Shown piece by piece: positions 34,684 through 64,000 of a DNA stretch of 64,000 nt; the stretch's first letter is position 1; every line of letters begins with the position of its first letter. The stretch comes from Isoetes taiwanensis (Eukaryota > Streptophyta > Lycopodiopsida > Isoetales > Isoetaceae). The stretch is from the NCBI GenBank assembly GCA_021234155.1, contig JAJEKV010000097.1, positions 248,001 through 312,000 on the forward strand. The letters run 5' to 3'. The notes under the pieces are model-generated. The model did no database searches. It saw only the letters and a list, made by a program, of their open reading frames with translations, and had not been told where the DNA came from. Both the position numbers and the translations under genes were made by a program.

Positions 34684-35331
34684 TGATGGTTATTAGTCAT
34701 GTAATATTATGGCTAAGATCTACAGAGAAGAAAGTTCTGTGAGTCTGCAGGGAAAAACTACAGTCACAAGTCAGACAATGGTCGTTTAACATTGGGATCA
34801 AATGAGAAACATTGAGATCAAGTGAGAATATGAAATGCAATGGTTATTGCCAAGTTAGTCGAAGGGCCTAGGTAAATTCTAACCTAGGTCGTAAATTTGT
34901 GGTTAAAGGTTAAAGGTGAAAGTTGAAGATTAGTATGCCTTAACCATTATAGAAATGGAGAATAACGGTCGAATGGCAGCATGCCATGGTCGACCCAAAG
35001 TGCGGCTAAGAGGTCGGTTAGGCCGATCGGCCAGACTGATCCGGATTTAAACCAAGTTGTAATGTATTCGGATTTGATCTTTGTGAGCTTAGAAGGTGGA
35101 TTAATGAATTAAAAGATCGTGCTTGGGCTCTCGAAATATGAGTCAACTCTGCTACAGTAAACTAGTCAATACAAAATGAACAGTAAAACTTCAATGGTTT
35201 GTTGAATAATTATTGAATAGTGAAATGTGAAGTATTCGAATGTCTTGATTCATAATTGAAGAGCATTTTGCATCATTGCTATCTAAGGTTGTCTAGCCAT
35301 AATTTTGTAAATATCTAGGCATAATCCTTCT
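34684..35331 (+). repeat. 5' LTR of the copia element
   Basis: 648 bp. It differs from the 3' LTR by an extra g in ccagactgat, an extra c in gagtcaact, and single changes near 35165, 35307 and the last base. Confidence 0.95.
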
Positions 35332-35332
35332 T

Positions 35333-35344
35333 TGGTATCAGAGC
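35333..35344 (+). other. Primer-binding site (initiator Met-tRNA)
   Basis: tggtatcagagc lies one base after the 5' LTR. It is the classic plant initiator Met-tRNA complement used to start minus-strand synthesis. Confidence 0.93.
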
Positions 35345-35357
35345 CAGCATTCTCATA

Positions 35358-38300
35358 ATGTCTACAAGATTTGGTGCAAATTTACTGACTTCTATTGAGG
35401 TGTTTAAAGGGGATAGTGGTTTTCAGATTTGGAAGCAAGGCATCAGGCAAGTGCTTGAATTTGAAAACTTGTGGTATCTCATTGATGGAGGACAAACCAG
35501 AAGAACTTCTATAATTGCAAGATCAAGAAATTCTGTTGCAGGGGAGACCAGTGAAGCTTCAGTTGAAGGTGGAGACAATGATGCTCCTGTCAGATCAAGA
35601 ATGACTGTAAGTGCAGAACCAGATGATGAACTGAAGGTAATGGAAGCTCAAGCTATTATAACAAGTAAGGTTGGCACTGCCATTAAGTTAAAGTTAAGAG
35701 GGATGAGTCCAAAAGAGATGTGGGATTACATGGTAAATCAATATGAGATAAAAACGTCATCACAAATTGACATGCTTGAAAAACAGCTTAGGAAGTTAAA
35801 GTTGTTTGAAAAGGACAATATGACTGATTATTTGGAAAAGTTTGACTCCATAATTGCAGATTTGGAGGGAGCTGGGATAATTTTAAATGATCAGTATCAA
35901 ATCTTGTCTTTGGCAAGATCTGTGTCTCACAATAGTCAGCTGGCTACACTGATCAGAAATGTTGCTAGGTCCAAAGAGCATGCCATTCAAATGATCAGGA
36001 CAGAATTTGAACAGAAAAATGTGACTTATGAAGACGATACATCTGAAGTTTTGTATGCAGGGAAAGCAAAGAGAGGTGGAGGTGCAAACAAGGACAAGCT
36101 CGGGCCTTGTTACAACTGTAATCAGTATGGTCACCTCAAGTATGACTGCCCTAATGAAAGTAAAGTTGTAAAATGCTTCAACTGTGATGGGAAAGGGCAT
36201 ATTGCTGCAAATTGCCCAAGTCCAAGAGGGACTGCAGGGAGAGGTCGAGGCAGAGGAAGGTCTGCTAATCAGAGAGGAAGCTTTGCAAGAGGGAGAGGTG
36301 CAGGCAGAGGCAATCCATCCTTGAATGTAGTAAAAGAGTCAACAACTAATGAAGAAGAGGACGAGGATGATACTGCTGAGGTAAGCCATTCTGCTTTGAA
36401 TATTTCAAATGGTCTGCAAAAGAAGGTTAACAAATTGTTAATCATAGATTCAGGAGCTGAGAAAACCGTGACATGTGATCAAACCTTGTTGAGAGAATGC
36501 AAAAAGAGAGAAGCTGGTCATGTGCAGTTAGGAGATGGAGGCTTGCAAAAGATTGAAGACACTGGAATATTAGAAATATTTGACTTAGAAGGAAAAGTTG
36601 TGGAATTTAGAGATGTTTTGTGTGTTCCTGGCCTTGTCAGAAATTTGATATCAGTTTGTCAACTTGTTGACTTGGGTTATAAAGTTCTTTTTGAACAACT
36701 AGAATGTAAAGTGTATCTTGGAAATAAAATCAAGTTTATTGGCAAAAGAGTGGGAAATTTATTTGGTCTTGATTGCAAGCACATTCCTAGTTTGAATATA
36801 ATTGAAACTCCATCTCTTAAGACTTGGCATAATCGAATGTGCCATACCAACTTGGCAAATATTGATATTTTGATTAAAAGAGGTCTGATATCAGCAAACA
36901 GAGATGAAAATGGAAACTTGACATGTGCAGGATGCATTCTTGGAAAGCAAACCAGGCTGCCATTTAGAAGATCTTTGAAAAGGGCAAAAGGAATATTGGA
37001 TTTGGTGCACACTGACCTTTGTGGTCCCATAAATGTTACTAGTATGTCAGGACATAGATATTTCATGACATTCATAGATGACTTTAGCAGGAAGACAAAA
37101 AGCTATTGTTTGAAGACAAAATATGAAGCTTATGATGCACTAAAATTGTTTGTTGCTGAGGTGGAGCTTGAGACTGGAAGAAAAGTCAGATGTATAAGAT
37201 CTGACAGGGGAGGTGAGTATCTATCCCATGAATTTAAAAGATTTTGTGCAAAAAGAGGGATTAAAAGACAATTAACATGTAGATACTCTCCCCAACAAAA
37301 TGGGGTAGCTGAGAGAAAAAACAGAACATTGCTAAATGCAGTCAGATCCATGTTAAAATATTCTGGATTACCAAACTATATTTGGAATGAAGCCTTGAAT
37401 ACTGCTGTTTATGTGCAAAATATCTTGCCATCTGTTAGTACAAGGGGAACAGTCCCTAAAATGTTATGGTCAGGCAAAATGCCAAGCTACAATGATCTTA
37501 AAGCATATGGATGCTTAACATTTGCACATGTACCTGAACAATTGAGGAAAAAGTTGGATGATAGAGCATACATTACCTATTTGGTGGGATATGACACAAA
37601 CTCCAAGGCATACAGGCTATATGATCCAGCCCATAGAAAAATAATAGTGAGTAGAGATGTAATATTCTATGAGTCTCAATTTTACAGAAAAATCCAAAAG
37701 GTAAATGTGGCTGACCTAAATGAAAGTGTGCAAGAAAGCAAGGTCGAGCAGAAACTTATTGAAAAAGAAGAATCTAGCATCACTGCTGGAGACTTAGTTG
37801 ATGATGGGGATTTGTCTGATGATCAAGGCAGTGAAAACTATGAGGGAAATGAACAGTCAATGCACGCTGCTGCAGGGATAGAAGAAGAACATTTCAGTCA
37901 TGAAAAGGAGGACACTATGATGCAGAATAAAGATGATGAAGAACAACCTCAGATTTTGGAAAAACAGAAAATAAGGACTAGAAGATCTGAGGCACAAATC
38001 TTAAGGGATGAAAATAAAGCTAACATTGAATTGCATGGAAGAAATGAATCAGGGAGAAGTAAAAGACTTCAGCCTCATGAAGGTGAAGTCGAGAATATTT
38101 TTGATATTTTGGTTCTAGAAAACAGTGACATACCAAAAACTTATGATGAAGCTATAAATGGAAAAGATGCTGAACATTGGCTTAAAGCCATGGAGGAAGA
38201 AATGCAGGCTTTTAGAAGAACAGAGACATATGAATTAGTTGAGAGACCACAGAACAAAAATGTTGTAGGAAACAAGTGGATTTTTAGAATCAAAACAGGA

Positions 38301-39686
38301 GCAGATGGAAAAACAAAGAAATACAAGGCAAGATTGGTCGCTCAGGGATTTTCACAAAAACGAGGAAAGAACTATGATGAAACCTTTTCTCCTTTGGTCA
38401 AAATAAACAGTTTGAGGATATTGCTGGCAATAGCAAACTCTTGTGATTTAGACATCCACCATATGGATGTAAGCACGGCATTCTTGAATGCAAAATTGGA
38501 AGAGGAAGTATACCTGAGACAAGCTCCAGGTTTTGAGGAAGGGGAAGAGAAAGTATGGAGGTTAAATCGAGCAGTATATGGGTTGAAGCAGTCCCCAAGA
38601 GAATGGTATAAATGCATGAACAATTATTTGAAACAACAAGGTTTTGAAAAATTAAATAATGATGGGAATTTGTATAGATTTAGAAATGGAGAGGAATGGT
38701 GCATCATTGCATTATATGTTGATGACAACATTATGGTGGCAAAAGGAACAGAAACTTTGAATAAATGCAAAGAGATCTTGAATCAGAGATTCCAAATGAC
38801 TGATCTTGGCGAATTAAGAAGGTTTCTGGGCATTGAAGTATTCAGGGATAGAAACAGCAAAATTTTAGCCTTGAGTCAGCAAATACACATTGAAAACATG
38901 CTGGAGAAATTTGGAATGAAGAGTTGCAATGCAGCAAGTACTCCTATTGTGCCAGGGCACAAAATATCTAAGGCATTAAGCCCACAAACATTTGAAGAAC
39001 AAAAACAGATGGAGGAAGTACCATATAGATCACTAATAGGATGCTTGTCATATGTTGCTAACTGTACAAGACCTGATATTGCTTTTGCAGTTAATCTTCT
39101 CAGTAGGTACAATCATAATCCTGGACGGGCACACTGGATTGCAGCCAAGAGAATCCTGAGATACTTAAAAGGTACAAGGTATGTTGGCATTATGTATAAC
39201 TCCAGTGATTTGAATCTGAAAGCTTATTGTGATGCTGATTGGGGAGGGGATCTTGATCAAAGGAGGTCCACATCTGGTTATGTAACAATTTTGGGAGGTG
39301 CTCCAGTAGCATGGAAATCCAAAAAACAAGGAAGCATAGCACTCTCAAGTGCTGAAGCAGAGTACAACTCTGCATCACTAGCAGCAAAGGAAATAATATG
39401 GGAAAGGAGACTCATAAGTGAACTTGGATTTGTACAGAAAAATGCTACTGTTATGTACTGTGACAGTACTAGTTGCATAGCTATGTCAAAGAACCCTGTT
39501 TTGCATGAAAGATCAAAACATATTGAAATGCAAGTTCATTTTATTAGGGATGTGGTGGAAAAGAATTTGCTGCACCTAACTTATGTCAGTACAAAAGATC
39601 AAGTGGCAGATCTATTTACTAAAGCACTGACAGCTAGTAGATTTGAAGAACTGAAATGCCTGCTTAATTGCTGTGATCAGGAGTAG
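35358..39686 (+). CDS. Copia gag-pol polyprotein, 1,442 aa, intact
   Basis: One uninterrupted frame, starting at the ATG 14 bp after the primer-binding site, encodes the retroelement's capsid and enzymes in copia order. Gag has two CCHC zinc knuckles (residues 251-264 and 273-286) followed by an RGG-like basic stretch (292-318). The aspartic protease has DSG at 364-366. Integrase has its HHCC finger (H491, H496, C523, C526) and DD35E triad (D553, D616, E652). Reverse transcriptase has YVDD at 1120-1123. RNase H has the CDADWGG and SSAEAEY motifs (about 1291-1335) and the HIEMQVHFIRD and DLFTKAL segments near the end. Length and order are normal for copia. No stop, frameshift or missing catalytic residue was seen. 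The products act in cytoplasmic virus-like particles and in nuclear integration. Confidence 0.97.
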   Translation: MSTRFGANLLTSIEVFKGDSGFQIWKQGIRQVLEFENLWYLIDGGQTRRTSIIARSRNSVAGETSEASVEGGDNDAPVRSRMTVSAEPDDELKVMEAQAIITSKVGTAIKLKLRGMSPKEMWDYMVNQYEIKTSSQIDMLEKQLRKLKLFEKDNMTDYLEKFDSIIADLEGAGIILNDQYQILSLARSVSHNSQLATLIRNVARSKEHAIQMIRTEFEQKNVTYEDDTSEVLYAGKAKRGGGANKDKLGPCYNCNQYGHLKYDCPNESKVVKCFNCDGKGHIAANCPSPRGTAGRGRGRGRSANQRGSFARGRGAGRGNPSLNVVKESTTNEEEDEDDTAEVSHSALNISNGLQKKVNKLLIIDSGAEKTVTCDQTLLRECKKREAGHVQLGDGGLQKIEDTGILEIFDLEGKVVEFRDVLCVPGLVRNLISVCQLVDLGYKVLFEQLECKVYLGNKIKFIGKRVGNLFGLDCKHIPSLNIIETPSLKTWHNRMCHTNLANIDILIKRGLISANRDENGNLTCAGCILGKQTRLPFRRSLKRAKGILDLVHTDLCGPINVTSMSGHRYFMTFIDDFSRKTKSYCLKTKYEAYDALKLFVAEVELETGRKVRCIRSDRGGEYLSHEFKRFCAKRGIKRQLTCRYSPQQNGVAERKNRTLLNAVRSMLKYSGLPNYIWNEALNTAVYVQNILPSVSTRGTVPKMLWSGKMPSYNDLKAYGCLTFAHVPEQLRKKLDDRAYITYLVGYDTNSKAYRLYDPAHRKIIVSRDVIFYESQFYRKIQKVNVADLNESVQESKVEQKLIEKEESSITAGDLVDDGDLSDDQGSENYEGNEQSMHAAAGIEEEHFSHEKEDTMMQNKDDEEQPQILEKQKIRTRRSEAQILRDENKANIELHGRNESGRSKRLQPHEGEVENIFDILVLENSDIPKTYDEAINGKDAEHWLKAMEEEMQAFRRTETYELVERPQNKNVVGNKWIFRIKTGADGKTKKYKARLVAQGFSQKRGKNYDETFSPLVKINSLRILLAIANSCDLDIHHMDVSTAFLNAKLEEEVYLRQAPGFEEGEEKVWRLNRAVYGLKQSPREWYKCMNNYLKQQGFEKLNNDGNLYRFRNGEEWCIIALYVDDNIMVAKGTETLNKCKEILNQRFQMTDLGELRRFLGIEVFRDRNSKILALSQQIHIENMLEKFGMKSCNAASTPIVPGHKISKALSPQTFEEQKQMEEVPYRSLIGCLSYVANCTRPDIAFAVNLLSRYNHNPGRAHWIAAKRILRYLKGTRYVGIMYNSSDLNLKAYCDADWGGDLDQRRSTSGYVTILGGAPVAWKSKKQGSIALSSAEAEYNSASLAAKEIIWERRLISELGFVQKNATVMYCDSTSCIAMSKNPVLHERSKHIEMQVHFIRDVVEKNLLHLTYVSTKDQVADLFTKALTASRFEELKCLLNCCDQE

Positions 39687-39728
39687 TTTTGAAGAACTGA
39701 AATGCTTGCTGAATTACTGAGATCAGGG
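39642..39728 (+). repeat. ~40-bp tandem duplication across the polyprotein stop
   Basis: 39642-39681, encoding the last codons (FEELKCLLN), is repeated with a few changes at 39688-39728, beyond the stop at 39684-39686. The copy would encode a similar FEELKCLLN. The 3' end was extended by duplication without affecting the frame. Confidence 0.85.
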
Positions 39729-39738
39729 AATATTACAT

Positions 39739-39749
39739 GAAGGGGAGAA
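39739..39749 (+). other. Polypurine tract
   Basis: gaaggggagaa directly abuts the 3' LTR; it primes plus-strand synthesis in LTR retroelements. Confidence 0.9.
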
Positions 39750-40395
39750 TGATGGTTATTAGTCATGTAATATTATGGCTAAGATCTACAGAGAAGAAAG
39801 TTCTGTGAGTCTGCAGGGAAAAACTACAGTCACAAGTCAGACAATGGTCGTTTAACATTGGGATCAAATGAGAAACATTGAGATCAAGTGAGAATATGAA
39901 ATGCAATGGTTATTGCCAAGTTAGTCGAAGGGCCTAGGTAAATTCTAACCTAGGTCGTAAATTTGTGGTTAAAGGTTAAAGGTGAAAGTTGAAGATTAGT
40001 ATGCCTTAACCATTATAGAAATGGAGAATAACGGTCGAATGGCAGCATGCCATGGTCGACCCAAAGTGCGGCTAAGAGGTCGGTTAGGCCGATCGGCCAA
40101 CTGATCCGGATTTAAACCAAGTTGTAATGTATTCGGATTTGATCTTTGTGAGCTTAGAAGGTGGATTAATGAATTAAAAGATCGTGCTTGGGCTCTCGAA
40201 ATATGAGTAACTCTGCTACAGTAAATTAGTCAATACAAAATGAACAGTAAAACTTCAATGGTTTGTTGAATAATTATTGAATAGTGAAATGTGAAGTATT
40301 CGAATGTCTTGATTCATAATTGAAGAGCATTTTGCATCATTGCTATCTAAGGTTGTCTAGCCATAATTTTGAAAATATCTAGGCATAATCCTTCA
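39750..40395 (+). repeat. 3' LTR of the copia element
   Basis: 646 bp, ending ca, and followed by the right target duplication acaca. Over 99% identical to the 5' LTR by eye. Confidence 0.95.
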
Positions 40396-45743: not shown

Positions 45744-46568
45744 TAAGACGGACCTAGCCCCTTGGCCTAGGTCGTCGCACTTTGGTCGCACTGGATAACC
45801 GAGACGAAACTAACGATCACGAAATAATGATACTTTTATATCCAATACTTAGCTATGCAAAAGCACTCATATATAACATAAAACCCACAATAGTTTATTT
45901 ATTTCAAAACAATCTTAATTATTTACAAGCCACACCCATGATCAATTGGACTTGGCGTCATCTGAGGTCATGGAGGAGGAGTCAGATGAGTTCTCCGCCG
46001 TGGAATACTCATCTCCAGATTCTCCGTCTTGGATTCGGGGAATCAACTGTTCGTAGTAGAGTTGCCGGAACAATGATATCGGCATTTTGTATACCCTCCC
46101 ATTTGAGATCATCTACGGCTCATCGTTTGTCTCCCGGAACCACTATGTCACGAAGGAATTGAGATCTGAAACTACCATAGTTCTGCATCTCAATTCCTTC
46201 ATGATGTGGTAGTTTCGGGAGACAGACGATGAGCCGGAGATGATCTCAAAGGCGAGGGTATACGGCAACTCTACTACGAACAGCTGGTTCCACGAATCCA
46301 GGCTCTAGAGGAGAATCTGGAGATGAGTAGGAGAACTCATATGACTCCTCCTCCGTGACCTCGGACGATGCCAAGTCCGATTGATCATGGGTGTGGCTTG
46401 TAAATATTAAGAGTGTTTTGAAATGCATAAACTATTGTGGGGTTTAAATTATATGTGTGTTTTTGTATAGCTAAGTATTTGATGTAAAAATATCATTATT
46501 TCATGATCGTCAGTTCCCTCTCGGTTATCCAGTGTGACGGCCTCGCCTAAGGGGCTAGGTCTGTCTCA
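45744..46568. mobile_element. Head-to-head pair of LTRs forming a ~820-bp imperfect palindrome
   Basis: 45744-46170 on the minus strand and 46180-46568 on the plus strand are the same LTR sequence. Shared landmarks in order are gagacagacgatgagccg, gagggtata, caactctactacgaacag, gaatctggagatgag, ccaagtc, gatcatgggtgtggcttgta, gctaagtatt and ggggctaggt. Left and right ends are gtctta and gtctca. The centre near 46176 has an inner repeat (gaaggaattgagat at 46152, its complement at 46187). Arms are roughly 85-90% identical, so the arrangement is old. The left LTR contains ~25 bp absent from the right. Confidence 0.85.
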
Positions 46569-49489: not shown

Positions 49490-49845
49490 CATGTATGGAA
49501 TAAGCCCTTACCTAACTCGGCATCTATACTATGCAAAATCAAAGAGCAGTTAAGGGAAATCCGGCGCCACCAGATTCGTGCTATGGATTGGGACGTCTGG
49601 CAACTTTCCTGGCAACCACATGCTGGAAACCTCTGGGTATAAAAGATCTGGCACGCATGACAGTCCGGAGGCAAAACAAAAGGTAAGCAAAATCGTCCTT
49701 ATGGATACTGCTTTAGGAAATCATAGGTCAAAACCTAAGGCAGAGCATGAATAGTTGGCTTTAGAATATGATATTCGTCACATGAAAAAGCAGATATATG
49801 ATTTACTGAAGAAATACTATTAAAGCCATAAAATCCCTAATTCGT

Positions 49846-50175
49846 ATGGAGGGAGAATTTGATTCAGACAGCTGCCCTTGTGACTCCAATTCAGAGGAGG
49901 AATCCCTGGAAGAAAAGTGGCTGGAGGAGGAGTTCCAAGCCTGTTTATCTTTGCCTGATTACAATCTTTTATCCAAAAGAATGGGGGACCACAGAAAAGA
50001 TCCAAACTTTAAAAGGGAAGCAGATCATTCTAAAGGATCTTTGGCAAATAAGAAAGGAAGTTATGGAGGTAGAACTGCATACAGCAACCATTCTGGTGGT
50101 ATTGATAAAGGGGAAGCCAGCATACCTGAAACACAGCAAGCTGAAGGATACACTTCAGATCAAGACGAAATTCAG
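49846..50175 (+). CDS. First coding exon of a diverged relative of the tandem-unit gene
   Basis: 110 codons from the ATG at 49846 end at a donor-like ttcag|gtacaa in phase 0. The product is strongly acidic at the start (SNSEEESLEEKWLEEEF) and then Lys/Gly/Ser-rich (NKKGSYGGRTAYSNHSGG). The first exon of the tandem units has the same layout: acidic start, a Cys-containing helix, a basic Arg/Gly/Asn segment, a xPETQ motif and a SDxDxxQ end exactly at a phase-0 donor. Overall residue identity is low. The ~100-bp block at 50355-50456 also matches the tandem units. I find no counterpart of their second large exon or of the RT before 52018, so this is a 5' remnant or a gene with very different downstream exons. 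Function unknown. Confidence 0.5.
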
Positions 50176-50354
50176 GTACAATTGATCTCAAATGGACAAA
50201 AAAAACAGTGATAGGCTGATTTAATATGCACAAAATGACCTTGAGGCCATTTACAACAGGTTTGAGAACATTATATGCAATCAATATTTACAATGTATTA
50301 TAAACTACAGATCTATTATCTTGTACTAACAGGGCAGAAGGATACAAGCAGAAG

Positions 50355-52017: not shown

Positions 52018-52032
52018 GGGTTTTTTTTTTTT

Positions 52033-52040
52033 TATAAATA
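52033..52040 (+). promoter_or_regulatory. TATA box at the start of unit 1
   Basis: tataaata follows a T run at the left edge of the unit and recurs at 59272-59279 in unit 2. It lies about 670 bp before the first ATG. Core-promoter function is inferred. Confidence 0.45.
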
Positions 52041-52499
52041 TGCATAGCTTGCAAGACTAATTTAATTATGCTCCTTTAGGGAATTTCAGTGGCCTACGTT
52101 CAACAATGGCTTGGATTTGATGGTTATTATACTGATAATATACTGGTTTAATATCATTTCCTTGTCCTACATTCCTTAAATAATACCCTATGTTCATTTT
52201 CCATTATCTTATGGAGAGTTTTTAACTAAGAATATAAACTTTGCATCCGTGTCAATATTAAACCAGTGGTGAATTCCCTCTGCCTATATTTAATAGGGGC
52301 TAGGGATTTGATGTGGATTATATGGAAAATATACTTTAATATCTTTTCCAGATCTTGCTTTCCTTTAAGAATTACCCTAGGTTTATTTTCCGTCCCCTTA
52401 TGGGGGTGTAGCTAAGTATGTTAACTTGGCGACCTTGTAAATATATAACCAATGGTGTAGTTAGGTTATCTAAAAATGAAATTTATTAAGCGTACATTG

Positions 52500-52550
52500 G
52501 CGACCAAAGATGTACATTGGCGACCAGCAATGAGTGCAAACTAGGGCTAC
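52500..52550 (+). repeat. Short tandem repeat (~19 bp x2) in the 5' leader
   Basis: tgtacattggcgaccagca occurs twice in a row, clearest in unit 2 (59730-59770). In unit 1 the copies are altered at the CAG/CTG positions. Confidence 0.7.
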
Positions 52551-52709
52551 CTAGGGCGGCGAAATCGATTTTTTCCATTGATCTTTATGAGGTGGTTGCC
52601 GATGCGGTTTGACCGCTTTTGGAGATCTTTTTGCTCGCCATAGATATCCTTGGACGGATCGGCCGTAATATCGTGTGGCGGCATTAATTGACTTTCAGGG
52701 CTTTCCACT

Positions 52710-53005
52710 ATGGAGTCGTGGGACTTACTCTTAGAGGATGATCTTCCACAATTTCGATCTGACTAGACAGCCTAAATAAATGAGGCTGGCTTTAGATAGA
52801 GAGATTGCATTTTGCATGCAAAGTTGTTTCTTGGAAGATCATAAGATAGATATGGAGGGATATAACAAGCGGGGCGGTATAACAATACCGCGACCACGTA
52901 ACCGTAGATTTCGGGGAGCCAATAGGCAAAGTTTCGAGACTCTTCCCATTATGTTCACGAAACTCAATTCATGGATGAGCATGAATCGGACATAGACGAT
53001 AACCG
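52710..53005 (+). CDS. Unit 1 first exon, frame broken as written
   Basis: Counterpart of the intact exon at 59957-60253 but one base shorter and carrying several changes. Nearly all fall where unit 2 has CTG or CAG: atactggccag versus ataccgcgacc, gttctgg versus gtttcg, cctgaa versus cacgaa. The ATG, the acidic start (ESWDLLLEDD) and the donor (gtatgt at 53006) are retained. I suspect base-calling error, not mutation. See the unit 2 exon for the protein description. Confidence 0.6.
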
Positions 53006-53359
53006 GTATGTTCTGAGTATCATTTGCTTACAAGAATGATCTGGAAATATAAGATGGTGTTTGGTAAAGTTCTGCTAATTGCCCCTTGTACTACTGTGCA
53101 CATAGCATCTGGATTTGTATGGCCAGACGATGTCTTAATACATGGCTGATCAGCATGCTAAAGAATAAGCTTAATACATCTTACCCAGTTACTCTTTCAT
53201 TCTAATTCAAATCGGCTTTAACTAATAGCAAACATGGACTGGTAACTGAAAGTTTCTCTCATTGTTTATTCCCTTGTTCTACTTATGAATCTATTCTCTC
53301 ATTTAGCATAATTTATTTCCATTCTTTCTTTAATGTTCTTCTGAATCTCTGGGCAAAAG

Positions 53360-53460
53360 GATTACATTAGGTGATCGGTTGACAACCGTGAAGCCTAAGG
53401 TACCTTTTGGCCCTTGCATCTTTACCCTTATCAGGCTAATGATGTATTGGTTGGCTGCAG
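53360..53460 (+). other. Conserved block within the long intron of unit 1
   Basis: Shares a cggtt-gac-aaccg hairpin, taccttttggccctt and a terminal ggctgcag|gtac with the diverged copy at 50355. One frame is open (KVPFGPCIFTLIRLMMYWLAA without its last residue), suggesting a small exon. Its length and phase do not fit a simple join between the phase-0 end of exon 1 and the phase-0 start at 55145. Confidence 0.5.
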
Positions 53461-54659
53461 GTACGGGCTTCTACTCCTAATGTTTTGCTTTTGTCCAGAG
53501 TGTCATAGAAGTTTTTGGGAGTCTGGCTGACGAAAGTGAAAGGACGTTGTCTTGGCTGGATGCATGCTTTTGGGATTGAGTACAAGAAAATTTTGAGTAA
53601 ATGTTCATTGGAGATGGCAGAGGCCTGAACCCTGAATTTTGGTGATGTCTTTCTTTATCTCACTGCTGTGTACTGTATCAGGTTTTTGAATGGGTATGGG
53701 AATAACTAGTTTATTTTATGACTGCCACTTTTGCCTGAATGGCTTTGACCTGACCTGGTATATTGGAAATCTAATACTTCTGAAGCATTGTTCGCATTAA
53801 TGTACAAGGCTGTTGCCTCTATAGTGCTAGTATCTTGTTTTGAGTATCTGTGATGCTATTTTGCCCTTACAATAGACATTGGGAACGCCTTGACTAGCTT
53901 TTTACCCTATCCGACTCTACTACAGCTTGCCAAATGTGTATTTATGAGACTGAAAACTTGTTATTGGCAGTATTTCCTAATTTTTCAAACAGGCTTATTA
54001 TATGAGAAGTTGCTGGTTTAATACTCAGTAATGAGATATTGTCTTTTTAACTTTTGTTCTGCTGTGTTCTTTGGAAATAATTCTGCTGTGTTCATTGGAA
54101 ATAAACGAGTGTTTGCTAAACTGAAAGAGTTGGTCAGAATAGCAGAATCATGCTGTTGTGGTAAAATGAAATGTAGTGGTGTATAAGTAGACCATGCATG
54201 AAAAATGAAATTAAATTAGCTATGATAGCATGTTCTTATCTGCAATATGGTGAACAGTGATTAAAATGATCTCATGAACCTAGGTGAGGAATATATGACC
54301 ATTATTAATCTGGTTGTGAAATCAAAATATTATTCTCATGACTACATCATGTTTTAAAGTGGATACTATAGTGGTAAATAACATAGCGGCCTCTACAAGA
54401 CGGATCCGATGGATCTACATAGATTTTAAAACTTCTAAGGTAGTAAAAATCTGAGCCACGTCCTTTAAGACAGATTGTAATTGCTTATCTCAAATACGTG
54501 AAAATTGTTCGTGCTCATATTGGAAACGTTTTGATGGAAAAAAAAGCTTTTTTCCTAAGATTAATAATGGTTATAGTCCCGGGTTCTTTATGAACGTAAC
54601 ATATAGTTCCTATTACTTTCTTGTAACTACGAATCCAAACTTATCTTTGTGACTCATAT

Positions 54660-54780
54660 TACTTTATAATCCTTGTTCACTTTAGAATCAAAGGAAGTAG
54701 TTGTCTATTGTGACTCATGTAACTTTATAATCCTTATCCACTTTGGAATCAAAGGAAGTAGTGGTCTATTTGAACATGGT
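54660..54780 (+). repeat. ~60-bp tandem duplication in the intron
   Basis: The unit tgactcatattactttataa through aatcaaaggaagtagt is repeated with small differences. The same pair is present in unit 2 (61905-62030), so it predates the unit duplication. Confidence 0.85.
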
Positions 54781-55144
54781 GATAAACAGACCGAGTTCTT
54801 AGTTAATTTATTTATGCTTCTTGGTAAAATGGAGCATGAGCATGGTTCAAATATGGTGCATGTATTTAAGGTATACTGATTTCCCTGGTTTTATGGTACC
54901 ACCTTGGACTGAAAAGTCTTAGACAGCGGCGGGATTGACCAATGCTGATGTTTGCGCTAGGTTTAACTAGTTCAAGCCGGTTTTTTTCATGACACTTCTG
55001 TGCATTGGTCATATCAGTGCTGCCATAATTCCTTGGTTAAAGTCTCTTTTCCTTCTAAGTTTATTCTGGCTTGGATATCTCTCTATTGATCTTTGCATTT
55101 GCTTTTAATCCTTATGGTCTCATATCTCTGATATATGATTGCAG

Positions 55145-56707
55145 GCTGAGTATGATAATCATGATGTACCTGAGCTTAAAATTGAGATTCCTACTTGGAA
55201 CTCGGAGCTCGTTGGTTGGGGTTATGACAAGAACAATATTGAATGCCCGAATAATGCTGTGCAGACCCTACTGTGCTGCATAAAGAATGACAAAGTCCAC
55301 CAAAGAATTTTGGAGAAAGAAGCCACCAAAGGGCCTAATGGTTATTCGTTAGTAAGCCACTTGGGCTTTAGCAATTGGCTGAAACTGATCCCTCAGCTTA
55401 ATGGCATCAAGAATGATTGGGATGAAAACACTTTAGTGGATGCTCTATATGAAGAACTTCATACCCTAATTGGAGACTGGACTGTTGAGGATGATATTGC
55501 CAGATCAGACTTTATGAAAGGTGTCACGGCCCTCAATAATGCAAATAGCATCAAGGTACATCCTAAGGAAAGGGACAGCATTGTGCAAACTGAAAGCATG
55601 GACAGTTGCAAAATGCTAAATGCGGATGAGGATCCCTTTGGTGAAATGCTCCTGTCTGAGCAAGATAAGACAGCAATTAAAGCCAAGAGTGGAGCTGTCA
55701 GCCCGGATGGTAATGAGTTTGCCTTTACTTTGGCCAATTGTATTAAATTTCCTATTATTCCAGCCAGGCATGTTGAGAACAATGGTGTGCTGTACAATCA
55801 AGGCATTTGGAGGTCTAAGAACTTTGGAGCATTGGCCCCAATATCACTGAATGCTTGGATGATTCTTGGAAACATCTCACAAGAACAAGTGGAGGAAGCC
55901 AAGGTAGCAGCATACAGAATGGACAAGTATGTAAACCGCCTCAAGGTTAAGTTATGCATTGATAATAGGTTTTTTGATAAACGCTGCCTTGTCAGTGACT
56001 GCATATTTATAAGCCAAAAAGGCCACATGGCATATCCGTCAATTAGACGTGACGAGTTCTATGTTAAGCGCCTGTGGCGTACACTTTGCCCTTATTTCAA
56101 GTGCCCGTGTGATCCAAAAGGCAAAAACCCTGATAACTCAACATGTAATGATAATATGACTTGGGTTGACCATGCAGTTTGGTACATGTTGAACAACCTC
56201 CAGACTTTATACCCTGATATGTCGGTGGCTGGACAAATGGTGTCTATTAGAAATTGCCTCAAAACCACACTCAGAACCAGTGTACTAGCTTATATCTCCT
56301 ATTTGGAGGTAAGGAAAGTCTTGACTGAAATGACCATGAAACTAGCTGCTGATCCATTGGCAGACCTTAAACTTGACTTTCCCAGATGCAAGCTAGTGGA
56401 TATCTGCGAAAAGACTCTCAAACCTGTGTCCTTCCTTAAAAGGATGGATGGTCCTAAAGGCAAAGATACCTATCGCAAAAAACAGCAATATTCTTCGCCT
56501 TCAGCTAGTGTGCAAAGTAGAATCAGTGCACCACCTAGAATGATGCAGTCTCCTGTCTTGGAACCTATTACTAATTCTGAAAGTGACTCAGTGGAACTCC
56601 TTAGATCATCAAGAGGTTTGGAACATTCTGTCACAAAGTTACATGCTGCTCGAGATCTAACCAAAGAGGACTCAGCTGTTCAAAACCTGAATTTCAATAA
56701 CAAATGA
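55145..56707 (+). CDS. Unit 1 large exon: ~520-aa protein of unknown family
   Basis: After the acceptor attgcag at 55144, the frame (AEYDNHDVPELK…) is open to TGA at 56705-56707. It joins in phase 0 to the first exon (…DIDDNQ), giving a predicted ~620-residue protein. Features: an N-terminal region with VGWGYDKNNIECPN and TLLCCIKND; acidic middle; NEFAFTLANCIKFPIIPARH; a CPYFKCPCDP…STCNDNMTW cysteine patch near residues 320-345; a C-terminal Lys-rich then Ser/Pro-rich tail (DGPKGKDTYRKKQQ). No transmembrane segment, GIY-YIG, RT or protease motif. I do not recognise the family. In a retroelement it could be a gag-like nucleic-acid-binding protein, but that is inference. A donor-like gag|gtatgt directly follows the stop. 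Confidence 0.75.
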   Translation, partial: AEYDNHDVPELKIEIPTWNSELVGWGYDKNNIECPNNAVQTLLCCIKNDKVHQRILEKEATKGPNGYSLVSHLGFSNWLKLIPQLNGIKNDWDENTLVDALYEELHTLIGDWTVEDDIARSDFMKGVTALNNANSIKVHPKERDSIVQTESMDSCKMLNADEDPFGEMLLSEQDKTAIKAKSGAVSPDGNEFAFTLANCIKFPIIPARHVENNGVLYNQGIWRSKNFGALAPISLNAWMILGNISQEQVEEAKVAAYRMDKYVNRLKVKLCIDNRFFDKRCLVSDCIFISQKGHMAYPSIRRDEFYVKRLWRTLCPYFKCPCDPKGKNPDNSTCNDNMTWVDHAVWYMLNNLQTLYPDMSVAGQMVSIRNCLKTTLRTSVLAYISYLEVRKVLTEMTMKLAADPLADLKLDFPRCKLVDICEKTLKPVSFLKRMDGPKGKDTYRKKQQYSSPSASVQSRISAPPRMMQSPVLEPITNSESDSVELLRSSRGLEHSVTKLHAARDLTKEDSAVQNLNFNNK

Positions 56708-57025
56708 GGTATGTCTTCATTATCTTGGAGCTTTTATAAAGTTTAAATGAATCTTCCATTGTATTTGTCTGGATATGATCATTGTGTATGAACATGTAGT
56801 CCTACGACTTTAAATTACTTTAAATTACTGTGATATGCTGGAGGTATCTCCTGGACATATCGGATCTTGGCTAGAATGCCACCAATGCCACTCGGCACCT
56901 CAATAAAATTATTTCGATGAATTTTAAGTTGGCCATCTTACTCTACCCATATTATGAACTTCGTTCATAGTTTGTTAGCAACCCGTATTACTTTTTAATT
57001 ATTGTTAGATCTGATTTTTGTGCAG

Positions 57026-57250
57026 ACCTCCGTAAGAGGCGCATATGGAATGCATCTAGGCGAACGCACCTGAATGATATAGGCCCTAAAAATAAGAAGA
57101 AAATCGTGCATAGTATGTTCTCTTCTAAAATCCTAGACAAGTTATACTTGCCCAAAATCTTCCAGCAGGCTTTGACCGAAACTCTGGGGGAACTCGGACA
57201 ACTCATCATGGATGAAACCATGTTTTCTTGGGAGTATATCTTGAAAATTT
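57026..57250 (+). CDS. Possible exon upstream of the reverse transcriptase
   Basis: After the acceptor ttttgtgcag at 57025 one frame is open for about 75 codons (LRKRRIWNASRRTHLND, then SKILDKLYLPKIFQQALTE and LGQLIMDETMFSW), followed by a stop. It is basic then amphipathic, unlike random intron. The donor that would join it in frame to 57291 is not obvious. Confidence 0.45.
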
Positions 57251-57290
57251 GAGTGATATCTCATTTACAAGCTATCATCTATCTTTGCAG

Positions 57291-59101
57291 TTGATAAGGA
57301 TTCAAAATGTCCCTGCAGTAATCCTAACCTTAGGAACTTCATAGACATTGGCATAGGGCATATCCGTACTACAAGTCTAAGCATTATCAAGAACAGGGAA
57401 CTTAGAAACCTTTTCATGAAAGGTTTAAATCATATCGAGACAAGGTTTTGGACATTCACGATCTTAAGAAGGATATTTGGAGATCATGTGACAGATTGTT
57501 TGAACCGCATTTTTACATATGCATCTGAGGTTTCCTCTCAAGATAAGGAATATGTCAAGGAAAGGGTTTGGGAACTCACTAGCAACAAACTTCAACAAAG
57601 CTATTAAATTGGATAACACGAGGAAGTTTTCTCGATGATATAAATGTTTCTAATAACCTTCGATGGTTAGTGGATAACTTATACATTTCGGAGTGGATAA
57701 GGCGACCAATAATCCTTGCTTTATCTGCCCTAAATATATTAAAGAAGAGGCCTTGAAAAGAATTAATAGTGCTGACTTCTTGGCTAGTAATCTTTCAGCT
57801 GTACAGGTTAAGGAGAAAATAAAATCAGAAATCAGTAATCTTGTAAGTGATGTTGGTCTTGTCACTGAAAAACTGCCTTACTTGTTGGGAATATTCAAAG
57901 CCCATAGACTTGATTACAGATGGATTACCAATGCGCATAATACAGTGTACACCGAAATATCCCTTGTAATAACTTCTGTTCTAAATGAAATTGTATCTCT
58001 ATGGCCAGAGATAGCTAAATTCCTATGTGGAAATATTTGCATGCAAATGCCTGGACCTATTAATCTTTGCTGGATAGTAGGGTCAGTTTATGATGTCACC
58101 CTTAACCTCCCCAGCTTTATACAAGAGGTGTTTGTAGCAGATATTACTAAGTGCTACGAAACTATCCCCTTGTCAGGAGAGTCCGGCATATGCAATACTA
58201 TAAAAAAAGTAATTGAAGCAGCTTGGCAGTACAAAAAGATGTTACATAAAAGACATGAGTTGTGGATCAAGAAAATTGGTGATGCAAGTTACAAAACTAA
58301 ATGGTTCAAATTTAGTCCAAGTAGCAAATGCTGGCAGCATATCAGTCAACAAAAGTTCATTGATATCAATATATGGCTTCGCCTAATTGCTATATTCTTT
58401 GTAGGGAATAGTACATGGAGACAGGCTAGTGGCATCCCAATGGGGTTCCCCGCAGCCGGGATGGTGTAATCTATACCTCTTTGGTTTGAGCTATCATTCA
58501 TCAAGGAACTAGCAAAATGCAAGGCAAGTTTGACATCATTAAATCGTTCAGGTTTGTATTTCGATACATGGATGACTTGGCTATCAATTGCCCCAAAATT
58601 AGGGAATACCTAAGTAAGGAGAGAAGTCCTTGAATGTGCAAAGCTTTACAGATCTATGATTTAGAACGACTTGGTATCAAGGAGGAAACACTTTTTGCCA
58701 AAAGTAGCCATATGAGTCATACATATGGACAAGCGGCGCATTTCCTCAATTTAACTATTGAAATCATGAATAGAACACATGGTATTTATAGGACTGTCAA
58801 ATATGATAAAAGGGACAGTCTCCCTTTCAAAACTCTTAAGTTCATTCATGCTGATGGGTGTAGACCGTACCATCAAGCAAGGAATGTGATCTTGTCCCAA
58901 GTGCTACCATGCCTTTACATCAACTCATGCCCTGCTGGAGCAGCAAGAGATATCATAGATCTCATTCACACCTTCATATGCAAAGGTTTTGACTGTGGCA
59001 GCCTCAAAAGAAGAGTCATAAAGTACATTAATGATAATAAGTTTCCTGGAATGAAGTTTGACTCCAGCGAAGTGGTCCATGACATTGACAACTACTTCTA
59101 A
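57291..59101 (+). CDS. Penelope-like (Naiad/Chlamys-type) reverse transcriptase, with frame breaks
   Basis: After the acceptor ctttgcag at 57290 the first frame gives KCPCSNPNL, then GHIRTTSLSIIKNRELRNLF and MKG, the CxC plus GHxxT plus LxxKG block upstream of RT in Naiad/Chlamys-type elements. The frame at 57693 gives VDKATNNPCFICPKYI, the DKA variant of the Penelope DKG motif. RT motif A-like FVADITKCYETIPL follows (58128), then motif B SGIPMGFPAAG (58429) and motif C FRYMDDLAIN (58555). A thumb region at 58634-59101 has HFLNLTIEI, TVKYDKRDSLPF and VILSQVLPC. Breaks occur near 57605, 57690, 58468, 58515 and 58632. Two of them (ttctcgatg, tttcgga) would be explained by one damaged CTG each. 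No C-terminal GIY-YIG follows the stop at 59099. The enzyme would copy RNA into DNA. Confidence 0.82.
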
Positions 59102-59271
59102 GTTTGAGGTATGAATGTTCTACAACATATTTTCTTTTCTATATGGCTAAAAGGCATGCATAGGGTGTGGCGTGGCTCCTGCTGGGAGTAGGGGCCAGCC
59201 ACCCCTATTTCAGTAAGATAAGCAGGATTCTTTATATTGCCCCACTCTACGGATGGAGGTAGGGTTTTTTT

Positions 59272-59279
59272 TATAAATA
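59272..59279 (+). promoter_or_regulatory. TATA box at the start of unit 2
   Basis: tataaata, same position in the unit as 52033-52040. Confidence 0.45.
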
Positions 59280-59956
59280 TGCATAGCTTGCAAGACTAAT
59301 TTAATTATGCTCCTTTAGGGAATTTCAGTGGCCTACGTTCAACAATGGCTTGGATTTGATGGTTATTATACTGATAATATACTGGTTTAATATCATTTCC
59401 TTGTCCTACATTCCTTAAATAATACCCTATGTTCATTTTCCATTATCTTATGGAGAGTTTTTAACTAAGAATATAAACTTTGCATCCGTGTCAATATTAA
59501 ACCAGTGGTGAATTCCCTCTGCCTATATTTAATAGGGGCTAGGGATTTGATGTGGATTATATGGAAAATATACTTTAATATCTTTTCCAGATCTTGCTTT
59601 CCTTTAAGAATTACCCTAGGTTTATTTTCCGTCCCCTTATGGGGGTGTAGCTAAGTATGTTAACTTGGCAGCCTTGTAAATATATAACCAATGGTGTAGT
59701 TAGGTTATCTAAAAAATGAAATTTATTAACTGTACATTGGCGACCAGCATGTACATTGGCGACCAGCAGTAGTGCAAACTAGGGCTACCTAGGGGGACGA
59801 AATCGATTTTTTTTTCCCATTGATCTTTATGAGCGGTGGTTGCCGATGCCGGTTTGATCGCTTTTGGAGATCTTTTGCTCGCCATAGATATCCTTGGACG
59901 GATCGAAAATTTGTAATCGTGTGGCAGCATTAATTGACTTTCCCGGGCTTTCCACT

Positions 59957-60253
59957 ATGGAGTCGTGGGACTTACTCTTAGAGGATGATCTTCCAATTTC
60001 TGATACAGCTAGACAGCGCCTAAATGAGGCGGCTTTAGATAGAGAGATTGCATTTTGCATGCAAAGTTGTTTACTGGAAGATCATAAGATAGATATGGAG
60101 GGATATAACAAGCGGGGCAGGTATAACAATACTGGCCAGCCACAGAACCGTAGATTTCAGGGAGGCAATAGGCAAAGTTCTGGAGACTCTTCCCATTATG
60201 TTCCTGAAACTCAATTCATGGATGAGCATGAATCAGACATAGACGATAACCAG
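59957..60253 (+). CDS. Unit 2 first exon: 99-aa acidic/basic N-terminus, intact
   Basis: The ATG at 59957 (a frame-compatible ATG at 59894 is less likely, being in the leader) opens 99 codons ending at a clean phase-0 donor cag|gtatgt. The product begins ESWDLLLEDDLP (acidic), continues with REIAFCMQSCLLEDHKIDM, then a basic Asn/Arg/Gly/Gln segment (NKRGRYNN, NRRFQGGNRQ) typical of RNA-binding tails, and ends acidic (DEHESDIDDNQ). It joins in frame to the large exon at 62422. Read-through would add 48 residues to a stop at 60397, so a retained-intron form is possible. Function unknown. Confidence 0.65.
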
Positions 60254-60604
60254 GTATGTTCTGAGTATCATTTGCTTACAAGAATGATCTGGAAATATAA
60301 GATGGTGTTTGGTAAAGTTCTGCTAATTGCCCCTTGTACTACTGTGCACATAGCATCTGGATTTGTATGGCCAGACGATGTCTTAATACATGGCTGATCA
60401 GCATGCTAAAGAATAAGCTTAATACATCTTACCCAGTTACTCTTTCATTCTAATTCAAATCGGCTTTAACTAATAGCAAACATGGACTGGTAACTGAAAG
60501 TTTCTCTCATTGTTTATTCCCTTGTTCTACTTATGAATCTATTCTCTCATTTAGCATAATTTATTTCCATTCTTTCTTTAATGTTCTTCTGAATCTCTGG
60601 GCAA

Positions 60605-60705
60605 AAGGATTACATTAGGTGATCGGTTGACAACCGTGAAGCCTAAGGTACCTTTTGGCCCTTGCATCTTTACCCTTATCGGGCTAATGATGTATTGGTT
60701 GGTCT
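60605..60705 (+). other. Conserved intron block of unit 2
   Basis: Same block as 53360-53460. The hairpin is intact, but its 3' end is altered exactly at the CAG and CTGCAG positions (ttatcgggc, ggtctgcgtgtaatgc). Confidence 0.55.
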
Positions 60706-62421
60706 GCGTGTAATGCGGGCTTCTACTCCTAATGTTTTGCTTTTGTCCGGAGTGTCATAGAAGTTTTGGGAGTCCGGCCGACGAAAAGTGAAAGGACGTT
60801 GTATTTGGATGCATGCTTTTGGGATTGAGTACAAGAAAATTTTGAGTAAATGTTCATTGGAGATGGCGAGGCCCTGAACCACGAATTTTGGTGATGTCTT
60901 TCTTTATCTCTTCTGTAATAATGCTTGTCGTTTTTGAATGGGTATGGGAATAACTAGTTTATTTTATGATCGCCACTTTTGCCCCGAATGGCTTTGACGA
61001 CTCGGTATATTGGAAATCTAATACCGGAAGCATTGTTCGCATTAATGTACAAGGTCATTTGCCTCTATAGTGCTAGTATCTTGTTTTGAGTATCCGTGAT
61101 GCTAGTTTGCCCTTACAATAGACATTGGGCTGCCTTGACTAGCTTTTTACCCTATCCGACTCTACTACTGACTTGCCAAATGTGTATTTATGAGACCGAA
61201 AACTTGTTATTGGCGGTATTTCCTAATTTTTCAAACAGGCTTATTATATGAGAAGTTCTTTGGTTTAATACTCGAGAATGAGATATTGTCTTTTTAACTT
61301 TTGTTTCATGTGTTGTTCTTTGGAAATAATTCTCAACGTGTTCATTGGAAATAAACGAAAGTGTTTGCTAAAGCGAAAAGAGTTGGTCGAGAATAAGCGA
61401 GAATCATCTTTGTTGTGGTAAAATGAAATGTAGTGGTGTATAAGTAGACCATGCATGAAAAATGAAATTAAATTAGCTATGATAGCATGTTCTTATCTGC
61501 AATATGGTGAACAGTGATTAAAATGATCTCATGAACCTAGGTGAGGAATATATGACCATTATTAATCTGGTTGTGAAATCAAAATATTATTCTCATGACT
61601 ACATCATGTTTTAAAGTGGATACTATAGTGGTAAATAACATAGCGGCCTCTACAAGACGGATCCGATGGATCTACATAGATTTTAAAACTTCTAAGGTAG
61701 TAAAAATATGAGCCACGTCCTTTAAGACAGATTGTAATTGCTTATCTCAAATACGTGAAAATTGTTCGTGCTCATATTGGAAACGTTTTGATGGAAAAAA
61801 AAGCTTTTTTCCTAAGATTAATAATGGTTATAGTCCCGGGTTCTTTATGAACGTAACATATAGTTCCTATTACTTTCTTGTAACTACGAATCCAAACTTA
61901 TCTTTGTGACTCATATTACTTTATAATCCTTGTTCACTTTAGAATCAAAGGAAGTAGTTGTCTATTGTGACTCATGTAACTTTATAATCCTTATCCACTT
62001 TGGAATCAAAGGAAGTAGTGGTCTATTTGAACATGGTGATAAAAGCAGATCGAAGTTCTTAGTTAATTTATTTATGCTTCTTGGTAAAATGGAGCATGAG
62101 CATGGTTCAAATATGGTGCATGTATTTAAGGTATACCGATTTCCACGGTTTTATGGTACCACCTTGGGTGAAAAGTCTTAGTGTGGCCGGATAAGACAAA
62201 TGGGCGGGATTGACCAATCTTTGATGTTTGCGCTTAGGTTTAACTAGTTCAAGCCGGTTTTTTTCATGACACTTCTGTGCATTGGTCATATCAGTGCTGC
62301 CATAATTCCTTGGTTAAAGTCTCTTTTCCTTCTAAGTTTATTCTGGCTTGGATATCTCTCTATTGATCTTTGCATTTGCTTTTAATCCTTATGGTCTCAT
62401 ATCTCTGATATATGATTGCAG

Positions 62422-64000
62422 GCTGAGTATGATAATCATGATGTACCTGAGCTTAAAATTGAGATTCCTACTTGGAACTCGGAGCTCGTTGGTTGGGGTT
62501 ATGACAAGAACAATATTGAATGCCCGAATAATCTTTGTCGCACCCTACCTTGTCTTTGCATAAAAGAATGACAAAGTCCACCAAAGAATTTTGGAGAAAG
62601 AAGCCACCAAAGGGCCTAATGGTTATTCGTTAGTAAGCCACTTGGGCTTTAGCAATTGGCTGAAACTGATCCCTCAGCTTAATGGCATCAAGAATGATTG
62701 GGATGAAAACACTTTAGTGGATGCTCTATATGAAGAACTTCATACCCTAATTGGAGACTGGATTGTTGAGGATGATATTGCCGATCGGACTTTATGAAAG
62801 GTGTCACGACCCCTCAATAATGCAAATAGCATCAAGGTACATCCTAAGGAAAGGGATGACATTGTGCAAACCGAAAGCATGGACAGTTGCAAAATGCTAA
62901 AATGGATGAGGATCCCTTTGGTGAAATGCTCCTGCCCTCGAGCAAGATAAGACGACAATTAAAGCCAAGAGTGGAGCCGGCCGGATGGTAATGAGTTTGC
63001 CTTTACTTTGGCCAATTGTATTAAATTTCCTATTATTCCAGCCGGGCATGTTGAGAACAATGGGTGTCTTTGTACAATCAAGGCATTTGGAGGTCTAAGA
63101 ACTTTGGAGCATTGGCCCCAATATCCATTGAATGCTTGGATGATTCTTGGAAACATCTCACAAGAACAAGTGGAGGAAGCCAAGGTAGCAAACATCTGAG
63201 AATGGACAAGTATGTAAACCGCCTCAAGGTTAAGTTATGCATTGATAATAGGTTTTTGATAAACGCCGCCTTGTCGGTGGATTTGCATATTTATAAGCCA
63301 AAAGGCCACATGGCATATCCGTCAATTAGACGCGACGAAGTTCTATGTTAAAGTTACTGCGGGCGCATACACTTTGCCCTTATTTCAAGTGCCCGTGTGA
63401 TCCAAAAAGGCAAAACCCCGATAACTCAACATGTAATGATAATATGACTTGGGTTGACCATGCAGTTTGGTACATGTTGAACAACCTCCAGACTTTATAC
63501 CCTGATATGTCGGTGGCTGGACAAATGGTGTCTATTAGAAATTGCCTCAAAACCACACTCAGAACCAGTGTACTAGCTTATATCTCCTATTTGGAGGTAA
63601 GGAAAGTCTTGACTGAAATGACCATGAAACTAGCTGCTGATCCATTGGCAGACCTTAAACTTGACTTTCCCAGATGCAAGCTAGTGGATATCTGCGAAAA
63701 GACTCTCAAACCTGTGTCCTTCCTTAAAAGGATGGATGGTCCTAAAGGCAAAGATACCTATCGCAAAAAACAGCAATATTCTTCGCCTTCAGCTAGTGTG
63801 CAAAGTAGAATCAGTGCACCACCTAGAATGATGCAGTCTCCTGTCTTGGAACCTATTACTAATTCTGAAAGTGACTCGGTGGAACTCCTTAGATCATCAA
63901 GAGGTTTGGAACATTCGTCACACAAAGTTACATCTTTTCGCTTTCGAGATCTAACCAAAGAGGACTCAGCTGTTCAAAACCTGAATTTCAATAACAAATG
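62422..64000 (+). CDS. Unit 2 large exon, frame broken as written
   Basis: Counterpart of 55145-56707 after the same acceptor (attgcag, 62415-62421). Frameshifts near 62530-62570, 62785, 62895, 62935, 62980, 63065, 63190, 63255 and 63340 sit where unit 1 has CTG, CAG or adjacent trinucleotides. From about 63420 to 63910 the two units agree again base for base, including many CTG/CAG. The window ends within the stop codon region. Confidence 0.6.

Follow-up and report, generated by a model that had tools for sequence, protein, structure and literature searches.

Introduction

Among eukaryotic retroelements, Penelope-like elements (PLEs) are the nearest to telomerase. The Naiad/Chlamys clade of PLEs is defined by an N-terminal GIY-YIG endonuclease, and its reverse transcriptases (RTs) have a CxC motif upstream of the RT domain, a DKG-type motif in the variant form DKA, and an insertion in fingers (IFD) between RT motifs A and B. 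Naiad elements occur in invertebrates and show a tandem/pLTR arrangement. Chlamys elements occur in green algae, and Craig and co-workers are said to have reported them in 2021 from spike mosses. To our knowledge, no canonical hammerhead ribozyme occurs in this clade. The endonuclease-less PLEs of the Coprina/Athena side are characteristically confined to telomeric repeats or chromosome ends.

PMC9033089 lists endonuclease-less, EN(-), PLEs for Selaginella, Pinus and Picea, and describes the Dryads as conifer PLEs that are EN(+) and belong to the Penelope/Poseidon group. The Selaginella PLEs are called telomere-associated in PMC12477314. Genomic copies of some PLEs retain introns, according to PMC3846280. 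The tandem/pLTR arrangement of PLEs is described with 5'-truncated second copies in a guide (PMC8969392), and PMC11167929 describes internal initiation in a PLE, Poseidon PAc.

The present study concerns a 64,000-nucleotide stretch of DNA from the lycophyte Isoetes taiwanensis (here called the window), in which a first-pass annotation had proposed a Naiad/Chlamys-type RT. Judged from sequence comparisons, the locus belongs to what is probably an autonomous, intron-containing and endonuclease-less PLE family of I. taiwanensis with a Naiad/Chlamys-like RT and an ORF1 of its own; we put the probability of this reading at roughly 0.72.

Materials and methods

The contigs scanned comprised 1,658,258,908 bases in 1110 contigs of the I. 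taiwanensis genome. The published assembly (PMC8566536) totals 1658.30 Mb, divided into 204 scaffolds and 909 contigs; it is based on nanopore reads, and racon and pilon were used for correction. RT copies were searched for in six frames with the window RT piece at 57678-58466 as the query; the 145 matches scored, which include the window's own two, were the best of 3124 first-look candidates. For ORF1 the best 83 matches were scored out of 3854 candidates, and the genome search for GIY-YIG, in which 150 of 263 candidates were scored, gave 121 matches.

Alignment A1 contains 20 RTs, namely those of 29 loci (L013-L041) that have a frame of at least 470 aa. Profile A2 was made from 12 of these 20, all intact, with the window copy excluded. 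Alignment A4 covers 3' ends. Besides the window it takes in 14 loci of the 19 that show the strict 3' motif described below, with L016, L018, L034 and the two loci of the window itself (L012 and L027) left out. In the splice-site survey 13 copies were examined, of which L051 gave no row, and the 12 rows represent 10 distinct loci. The splice sites are predictions, i.e. consensus sites picked among several candidates in genomic copies.

Results and discussion

A PLE-type reverse transcriptase in a plant genome

Each of the motifs on which the first-pass annotation was based (CPCSN...GHIRT, KG, DKATNNP, SGIPMG, FRYMDD and YDKRDSLPF) is present on the + strand within 57291-59101. Profile A2 matched the single-frame pieces of the window copy with 481, 279, 124, 93 and 51 bits, and chance is therefore excluded as the origin of these motifs. 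C102-P-C104, which is the CxC upstream of the RT, D232-K233-A234, which is the DKA variant of the DKG-type motif, GIPMG and FRYMDD are invariant in all 12 RTs of A2. From the Asp of motif A (D380) to G477 of GIPMG there are 97 residues in the aligned sequences, with a conserved HELWIKK..KCW segment between them. The HMM search detected Pfam RVT_1 in all six intact RTs scanned, at E values of 4e-6 to 1.1e-4 that fall below the curated cut-off, and general RT models match motifs B-C weakly. The RT is under purifying selection, with dN/dS of the intact RTs at 0.06-0.23 in six of nine pairs and the other three pairs saturated at synonymous sites.

The RT had been thought to be spread over several exons. 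It lies instead in one exon, which starts at 57026 after the acceptor GTGCAG/ACC and has its stop at 59101, and in 69 of the 145 scored matches the reading frame continues without a break for at least 680 aa. A multi-exon RT was rejected, as relatives have open single frames and the interruptions in the window are frame breaks inside one exon. The annotated start at 57291 lies 265 bp downstream of the start of the exon; the N-terminal block lies in the pieces 56971-57249 and 57257-57604 (profile A2). The RT is in a plant genome, as had been assumed. A PPR gene and a copia frame share the window and many contigs carry RT matches, which led us to reject contamination by animal or protist DNA.

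An unreferenced animal RT sequence, which we take to be of Naiad type, matched A2 with 129.5 bits over positions 112-663, and about 550 profile positions were aligned, including the GHVRT and YDKRD blocks. When this sequence was shuffled 20 times, the scores did not exceed 1.2 bits. The RT-bearing loci L001-L008, of unassigned class, and the copia frame and LINE frames of the window gave at most 0.2 bits. The same query also hit five loci (L069-L073) in the GTDB, in assemblies of Bathymodiolus symbionts and related ones. These appear to be animal PLE fragments present as host contamination, and they were taken for sequence of the host mussel. L069 gave 50.4 bits with A2 (tblastn down to 6e-14), L070 11.7 bits and L071-L073 1 bit or less. 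Of the five, L069 is the one clear match; a window frame that lies outside the element reached 10.8 bits by chance, and therefore L070 alone proves nothing. The frame of L069 ends about 20 residues after the RT, and thus no C-terminal endonuclease is present there. Scans of IMG/VR (with two window proteins, A2 and the Naiad-type sequence), a scan of GTDB with A2, PDB sequence searches and a phage search yielded nothing informative.

With these scores for the putative Naiad-type RT and L069 on one side and for the copia and LINE frames on the other, the RT is of PLE type and not of LINE or copia type, in agreement with the original proposal. The more specific assignment to the Naiad/Chlamys branch stands in part: the likeness of the RT is supported by the 129.5-bit match to the putative Naiad-type sequence, the CxC and the DKA, whereas full membership is unsupported because the clade-defining N-terminal GIY-YIG was not found.

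Tandem units and their 3' ends

The RT exon is part of a repeat unit of 7.24 kb (Table 1). The array consists of two full head-to-tail units and a third unit (66564-69528) that is cut at 69528 and has only the first 2950 of 7239 bp, its 3' part being missing; the array runs past the end of the window and is internal on a 3.9-Mb contig. A full unit begins with a short exon 1, continues with an ORF1 exon of about 520 aa and the RT exon, and closes with a 3' end that is conserved; a predicted intron of about 2.2 kb separates exon 1 from the ORF1 exon. This common unit is arranged head-to-tail with T-run junctions, and further tandem arrays of the family are found at other loci of the genome. RT and ORF1 occur within 5 kb of each other for at least 38 of the 145 RT rows and at least 38 of the 83 ORF1 rows; these are lower bounds because the two tables hold the best matches only.

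Table 1. Features of the Isoetes element in the window (window numbering)
Feature	Position	Strand	Basis
Repeat unit 1, full, 7239 bp	52026..59264	+	95.4% to 59265-66563, 97.0% to 66564-69528
Repeat unit 2	59265..64000 in the window, on to 66563 beyond	+	Repeat comparison with unit 1
T13 run, left array end	52021..52033	+	Sequence
Exon 1 of unit 1 (interrupted frames; approximate end)	52710..53006	+	ATG 52710; exon-1 profile matches pieces 52780-52992 and 52926-53036
ORF1 exon, ~520 aa, stop TGA 56705-56707	55145..56708	+	Acceptor, frame, alignment A3, genome relatives
Predicted intron, ORF1 exon to RT exon	56709..57025	+	Donor-like GT after ORF1 stop; acceptor
RT exon, frame broken in window copy	57026..59101	+	Profile matches; intact relatives
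Conserved RNA hairpin, 3' terminal region	59161..59207	+	Alignment A4, pair counts
3' terminal hairpin and end motif TACGG(T/A)TGGAGGTAGG	59246..59264	+	Alignment A4, pair counts, genome-wide exact copies
T8 run, internal unit junction	59265..59272	+	Sequence
Exon 1 of unit 2, 99 codons	59957..60253	+	Donor CAG/GTATGT, phase 0; exon-1 profile
ORF1 exon of unit 2, frames broken, leaves window	62422..64000	+	Profile and acceptor

Upstream of the array there is a second, divergent element, with an exon-1-like ORF at 49810..50208 (+; exon-1 profile E 3.6e-9). No match to the ORF1 or RT profile was found between this ORF and the array.

The strict 3' motif (.ACGG..GGAGG.AGG) was present in 19 of 30 loci, including the window's two units, and absent in 11, and in all 19 it was directly followed by T6-T9. 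The pattern TACGGWTGGAGGTAGGNTTTTTT, i.e. the end motif followed by N and T6, has 295 copies in the genome, and its reversed control none. When three helices were laid on the 15 aligned 3' ends (14 distinct), 87.5% of the cells paired, compared with 37-55% when the partners were slid by 1-3 columns. The covariation score was reached by none of 500 shuffles, the count of pairs changed on both sides by 36 of 500 and the number of pair types by 95 of 500; the versions slid by +2 and +3 exceed the structure in pairs changed on both sides. The covariation support is moderate, because shuffles and slid versions match some of the pair counts. Rfam gave no match at gathering score in the window, and thus no canonical hammerhead ribozyme, and with the threshold relaxed to E 5 just two families, both unrelated, in 58950-59500. 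A hammerhead or other Rfam RNA was rejected on the basis of these scans.

The T-runs at internal junctions were 8 and 8 in the window array, 8 at L044 and 6 at L045, and those at left ends were 13, 25 and 36, respectively; the left ends of L042 and L043 had no long poly(T) run. At the right end of the window array there is a T16 at 69531-69546, in continued window numbering, and T-runs of at least 13 occur three times in the window. In the sampled arrays (window, L044 and L045), long poly(T) thus borders three left ends and one right end, and the family likely inserts at poly(T), although this sampling is thin. The right end of the array falls inside the next unit, which would fit internal initiation and the pLTR arrangement of PLEs. 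In the guide, the second copies are 5'-truncated (PMC8969392), whereas in the window array the last unit is without its 3' part.

Among the first 100 places of TACGGWTGGAGGTAGGNTTTTTT some same-strand spacings are 2.3-4.1 kb, and at G000 C907:11246354-11254751 the 3' end motif occurs four times with a spacing of about 2.8 kb. Since 2.3-4.1 kb is too tight for a full unit, this suggests short non-autonomous tandem derivatives of the element.

Predicted splicing and the ORF1 protein

Splice-site candidates recur across the genomic copies of the family. Exon 1, of about 100 aa, ends with CAG/GT in phase 0 in four of six copies (unit 2, L042, L043 and L045) and has no clear end in L044 and L046. 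Phase-0 acceptor candidates were found for the ORF1 exon in five of six copies, the exception being L045, and for the RT exon in all five loci, alongside candidates in other phases. In 11 of 12 rows a donor-like GT follows the ORF1 stop at a distance of 1-7 bases; in the remaining one, L048, it is 34 bases past an early stop. As the exon-1 donor and both acceptors are in phase 0, exon 1 can join either the ORF1 exon or the RT exon in frame. The first junction would give the ORF1 protein, while alternatively exon 1 would skip the ORF1 exon and join the RT exon to give the RT protein. We infer the latter splicing because, of the 16 RTs in A1 extending into the N-terminal block, 10 lack a Met in the stretch from the likely acceptor to this block. 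An RT start codon in exon 1 is favoured by these sequences, not proven, and in the six RTs with a Met after the acceptor a separate RT start is possible.

ORF1 has a conserved Cys cluster, CPYFKCxC..C.DNMTW (alignment A3). Nothing above cut-off was found in Pfam with nine ORF1 sequences (best E 0.021), nor a family above cut-off in PADLOC, NCBIfam and PHROGs with two sequences each, and no match to a solved structure among the PDB sequences went below E 0.27. It is possible that ORF1 is an unrecognised nuclease.

Search for an endonuclease

The first-pass annotation had seen no GIY-YIG domain, and this held in Pfam scans of the window pieces, including exon 1 of unit 2, of six intact RTs and of nine ORF1 sequences. 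None of the 121 listed GIY-YIG matches of the genome is within 15 kb of the 145 listed RT or 83 listed ORF1 rows, and 10 GIY-YIG loci, cut out at about 3.2 kb each, contained no RT or ORF1 match. Given this distance and these 10 loci, the GIY-YIG matches of the genome were rejected as a part of the PLE family. No endonuclease domain was thus recognised in the scanned proteins of the unit, nor a GIY-YIG within 15 kb of the listed copies, and the lack of such a domain is characteristic of EN(-) PLEs.

At L059-L068 the GIY-YIG ORFs are mostly about 115-156 aa, and frames that look PIF1-helicase-like by eye adjoin them in several cases. These loci may represent a different repeated element or viral DNA inserted in the plant.

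Comparison with described elements

The Isoetes RT resembles the putative Naiad sequence in GHV.T, KG, DKA, the long spacing from motif A to motif B, GIPMG, FRY.DD and YDKRD, and the tandem/pLTR arrangement is common to the Isoetes element and Naiad. In contrast to Naiad, the Isoetes element has an ORF1 exon, predicted introns, poly(T) junctions and a plant host, and no N-terminal GIY-YIG was found in it. Chlamys, set beside it by description, likewise has a green-lineage host and would be expected to have a related RT, but differs in its GIY-YIG.

The EN(-) PLEs of Selaginella, Pinus and Picea, as listed in PMC9033089, share with the Isoetes element a land plant host and the lack of a recognised endonuclease. 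Dryads are likewise PLEs in plants but are EN(+) and of the Penelope/Poseidon group. Compared by description, the Selaginella PLEs are called telomere-associated (PMC12477314), whereas the Isoetes array is internal and lies at poly(T). Poseidon PAc of Anolis also has tandem units, and an array with its right end in the next unit would fit the internal initiation described for it, but PAc has a single ORF, a C-terminal GIY-YIG and a hammerhead motif (PMC11167929). It had been expected that an element of this kind would be unusual in a land plant. The two-protein anatomy and the lack of a recognised endonuclease are indeed unusual, but the surprise is lowered by the EN(-) PLEs already reported in Selaginella, Pinus and Picea (PMC9033089). 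Chlamys elements, which reportedly occur in spike mosses, lower it as well.

The template for insertion would be an unspliced RNA, perhaps spanning more than one unit, and the introns would therefore be kept. The RT would start at an internal point of this RNA, using a 3' end that lies within a poly(A)/poly(T) tract, and the tandem units could then arise by run-on or by template jumping. In place of a GIY-YIG, the ORF1 protein may open the target strand; a nick made by the host and a break are further candidates. The family bears on the question of how endonuclease-less PLEs insert away from chromosome ends. With its many intact and constrained copies, a conserved second protein and a defined junction, it offers a system for T-tract priming, ORF1 function and exon choice.

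Alternative explanations

The Isoetes family is a real, conserved PLE with a Naiad/Chlamys-like RT, its membership of that clade not being proven. It might form a distinct plant lineage sister to Naiad/Chlamys, in which ORF1 would have replaced the GIY-YIG, the ORF1 exon would be skipped as a cassette and insertion at poly(T) would proceed by internal initiation on the T-run of the element's own RNA; we advance this tentatively, with the odds somewhat against it. We find it doubtful that the family is a Chlamys/Naiad element that has lost its GIY-YIG or borrows one in trans. The similarity of the RT to the Naiad type and the presence of 121 GIY-YIG matches elsewhere in the genome would agree with such an origin, but none of those matches is within 15 kb of any listed RT or ORF1 copy and the 10 excised loci were without both. 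It could also be an ordinary EN(-) PLE of the Coprina/Athena side, the Naiad-like motifs then being shared ancestral features of PLEs. This would account for the lack of GIY-YIG matches around the listed rows and would be in line with the EN(-) elements reported in Selaginella, Pinus and Picea (PMC9033089), but it is quite unlikely in view of the approximately 550 profile positions aligned with the putative Naiad-type RT, GHVRT and YDKRD blocks included, and of the internal position of the array, which in this one array has poly(T) on both sides.

A host RT gene, either telomerase or an rvt gene, would explain RT motifs in a plant genome, but is disfavoured because of the copy number (145 scored matches out of 3124 candidates); the tandem units and T-run junctions likewise speak against it, and we regard it as highly improbable. 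Telomerase was rejected, as PF12009 (Telomerase_RBD) was not found in five RTs and both genomic matches to it fall at loci other than those of the family. An equally improbable origin is a tandem LTR retrotransposon or pararetrovirus, which would have long direct repeats and whose gag-like protein the leader could pass for. This is disfavoured because of the domain content: protease, RNase H and integrase are absent from the frames scanned with Pfam. An LTR element was rejected on this ground and because the copia RT of the window gave 0.2 bits with A2. Finally, the window copy could be a decayed pseudogene with true mutations as its frame breaks. Stops and frameshifts are present in both unit 1 and unit 2, the sequence of which was left unmended, and frames shorter than 680 aa are found in 76 of the 145 scored matches. 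However, the differences between the two units (229 substitutions and 89 indels, indels thus being 89 of 318 events) are patchy, with 29 of 73 windows of 100 bp free of differences where 0.94 were expected, and the assembly was made from nanopore reads corrected with racon and pilon (PMC8566536). For these two reasons the frame breaks are likely patches of unpolished nanopore consensus, and decay of the window copy is unlikely. Gene conversion could also explain the patchy differences.

Novelty and other features of the window

The word Penelope is absent from the main text of PMC8566536. A literature search combining Isoetes or lycophytes with Penelope-like elements gave no title on the subject among those listed, and the key PLE papers were outside the literature searched; the novelty in print of the Isoetes PLE family is uncertain.

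The PPR gene in the window was recognised with Pfam. At 34683-40394 there is a copia element with direct repeats that are 99.4% identical and a frame of 1453 aa, probably a recent insertion. A long imperfect palindrome (79.5%) is located at 45785-46538. The first 2000 bases of the window (1-2000) have a G+C content of 59.5%, compared with 33-44% in the other 2-kb windows, and the frames on their - strand are LINE-like by eye.
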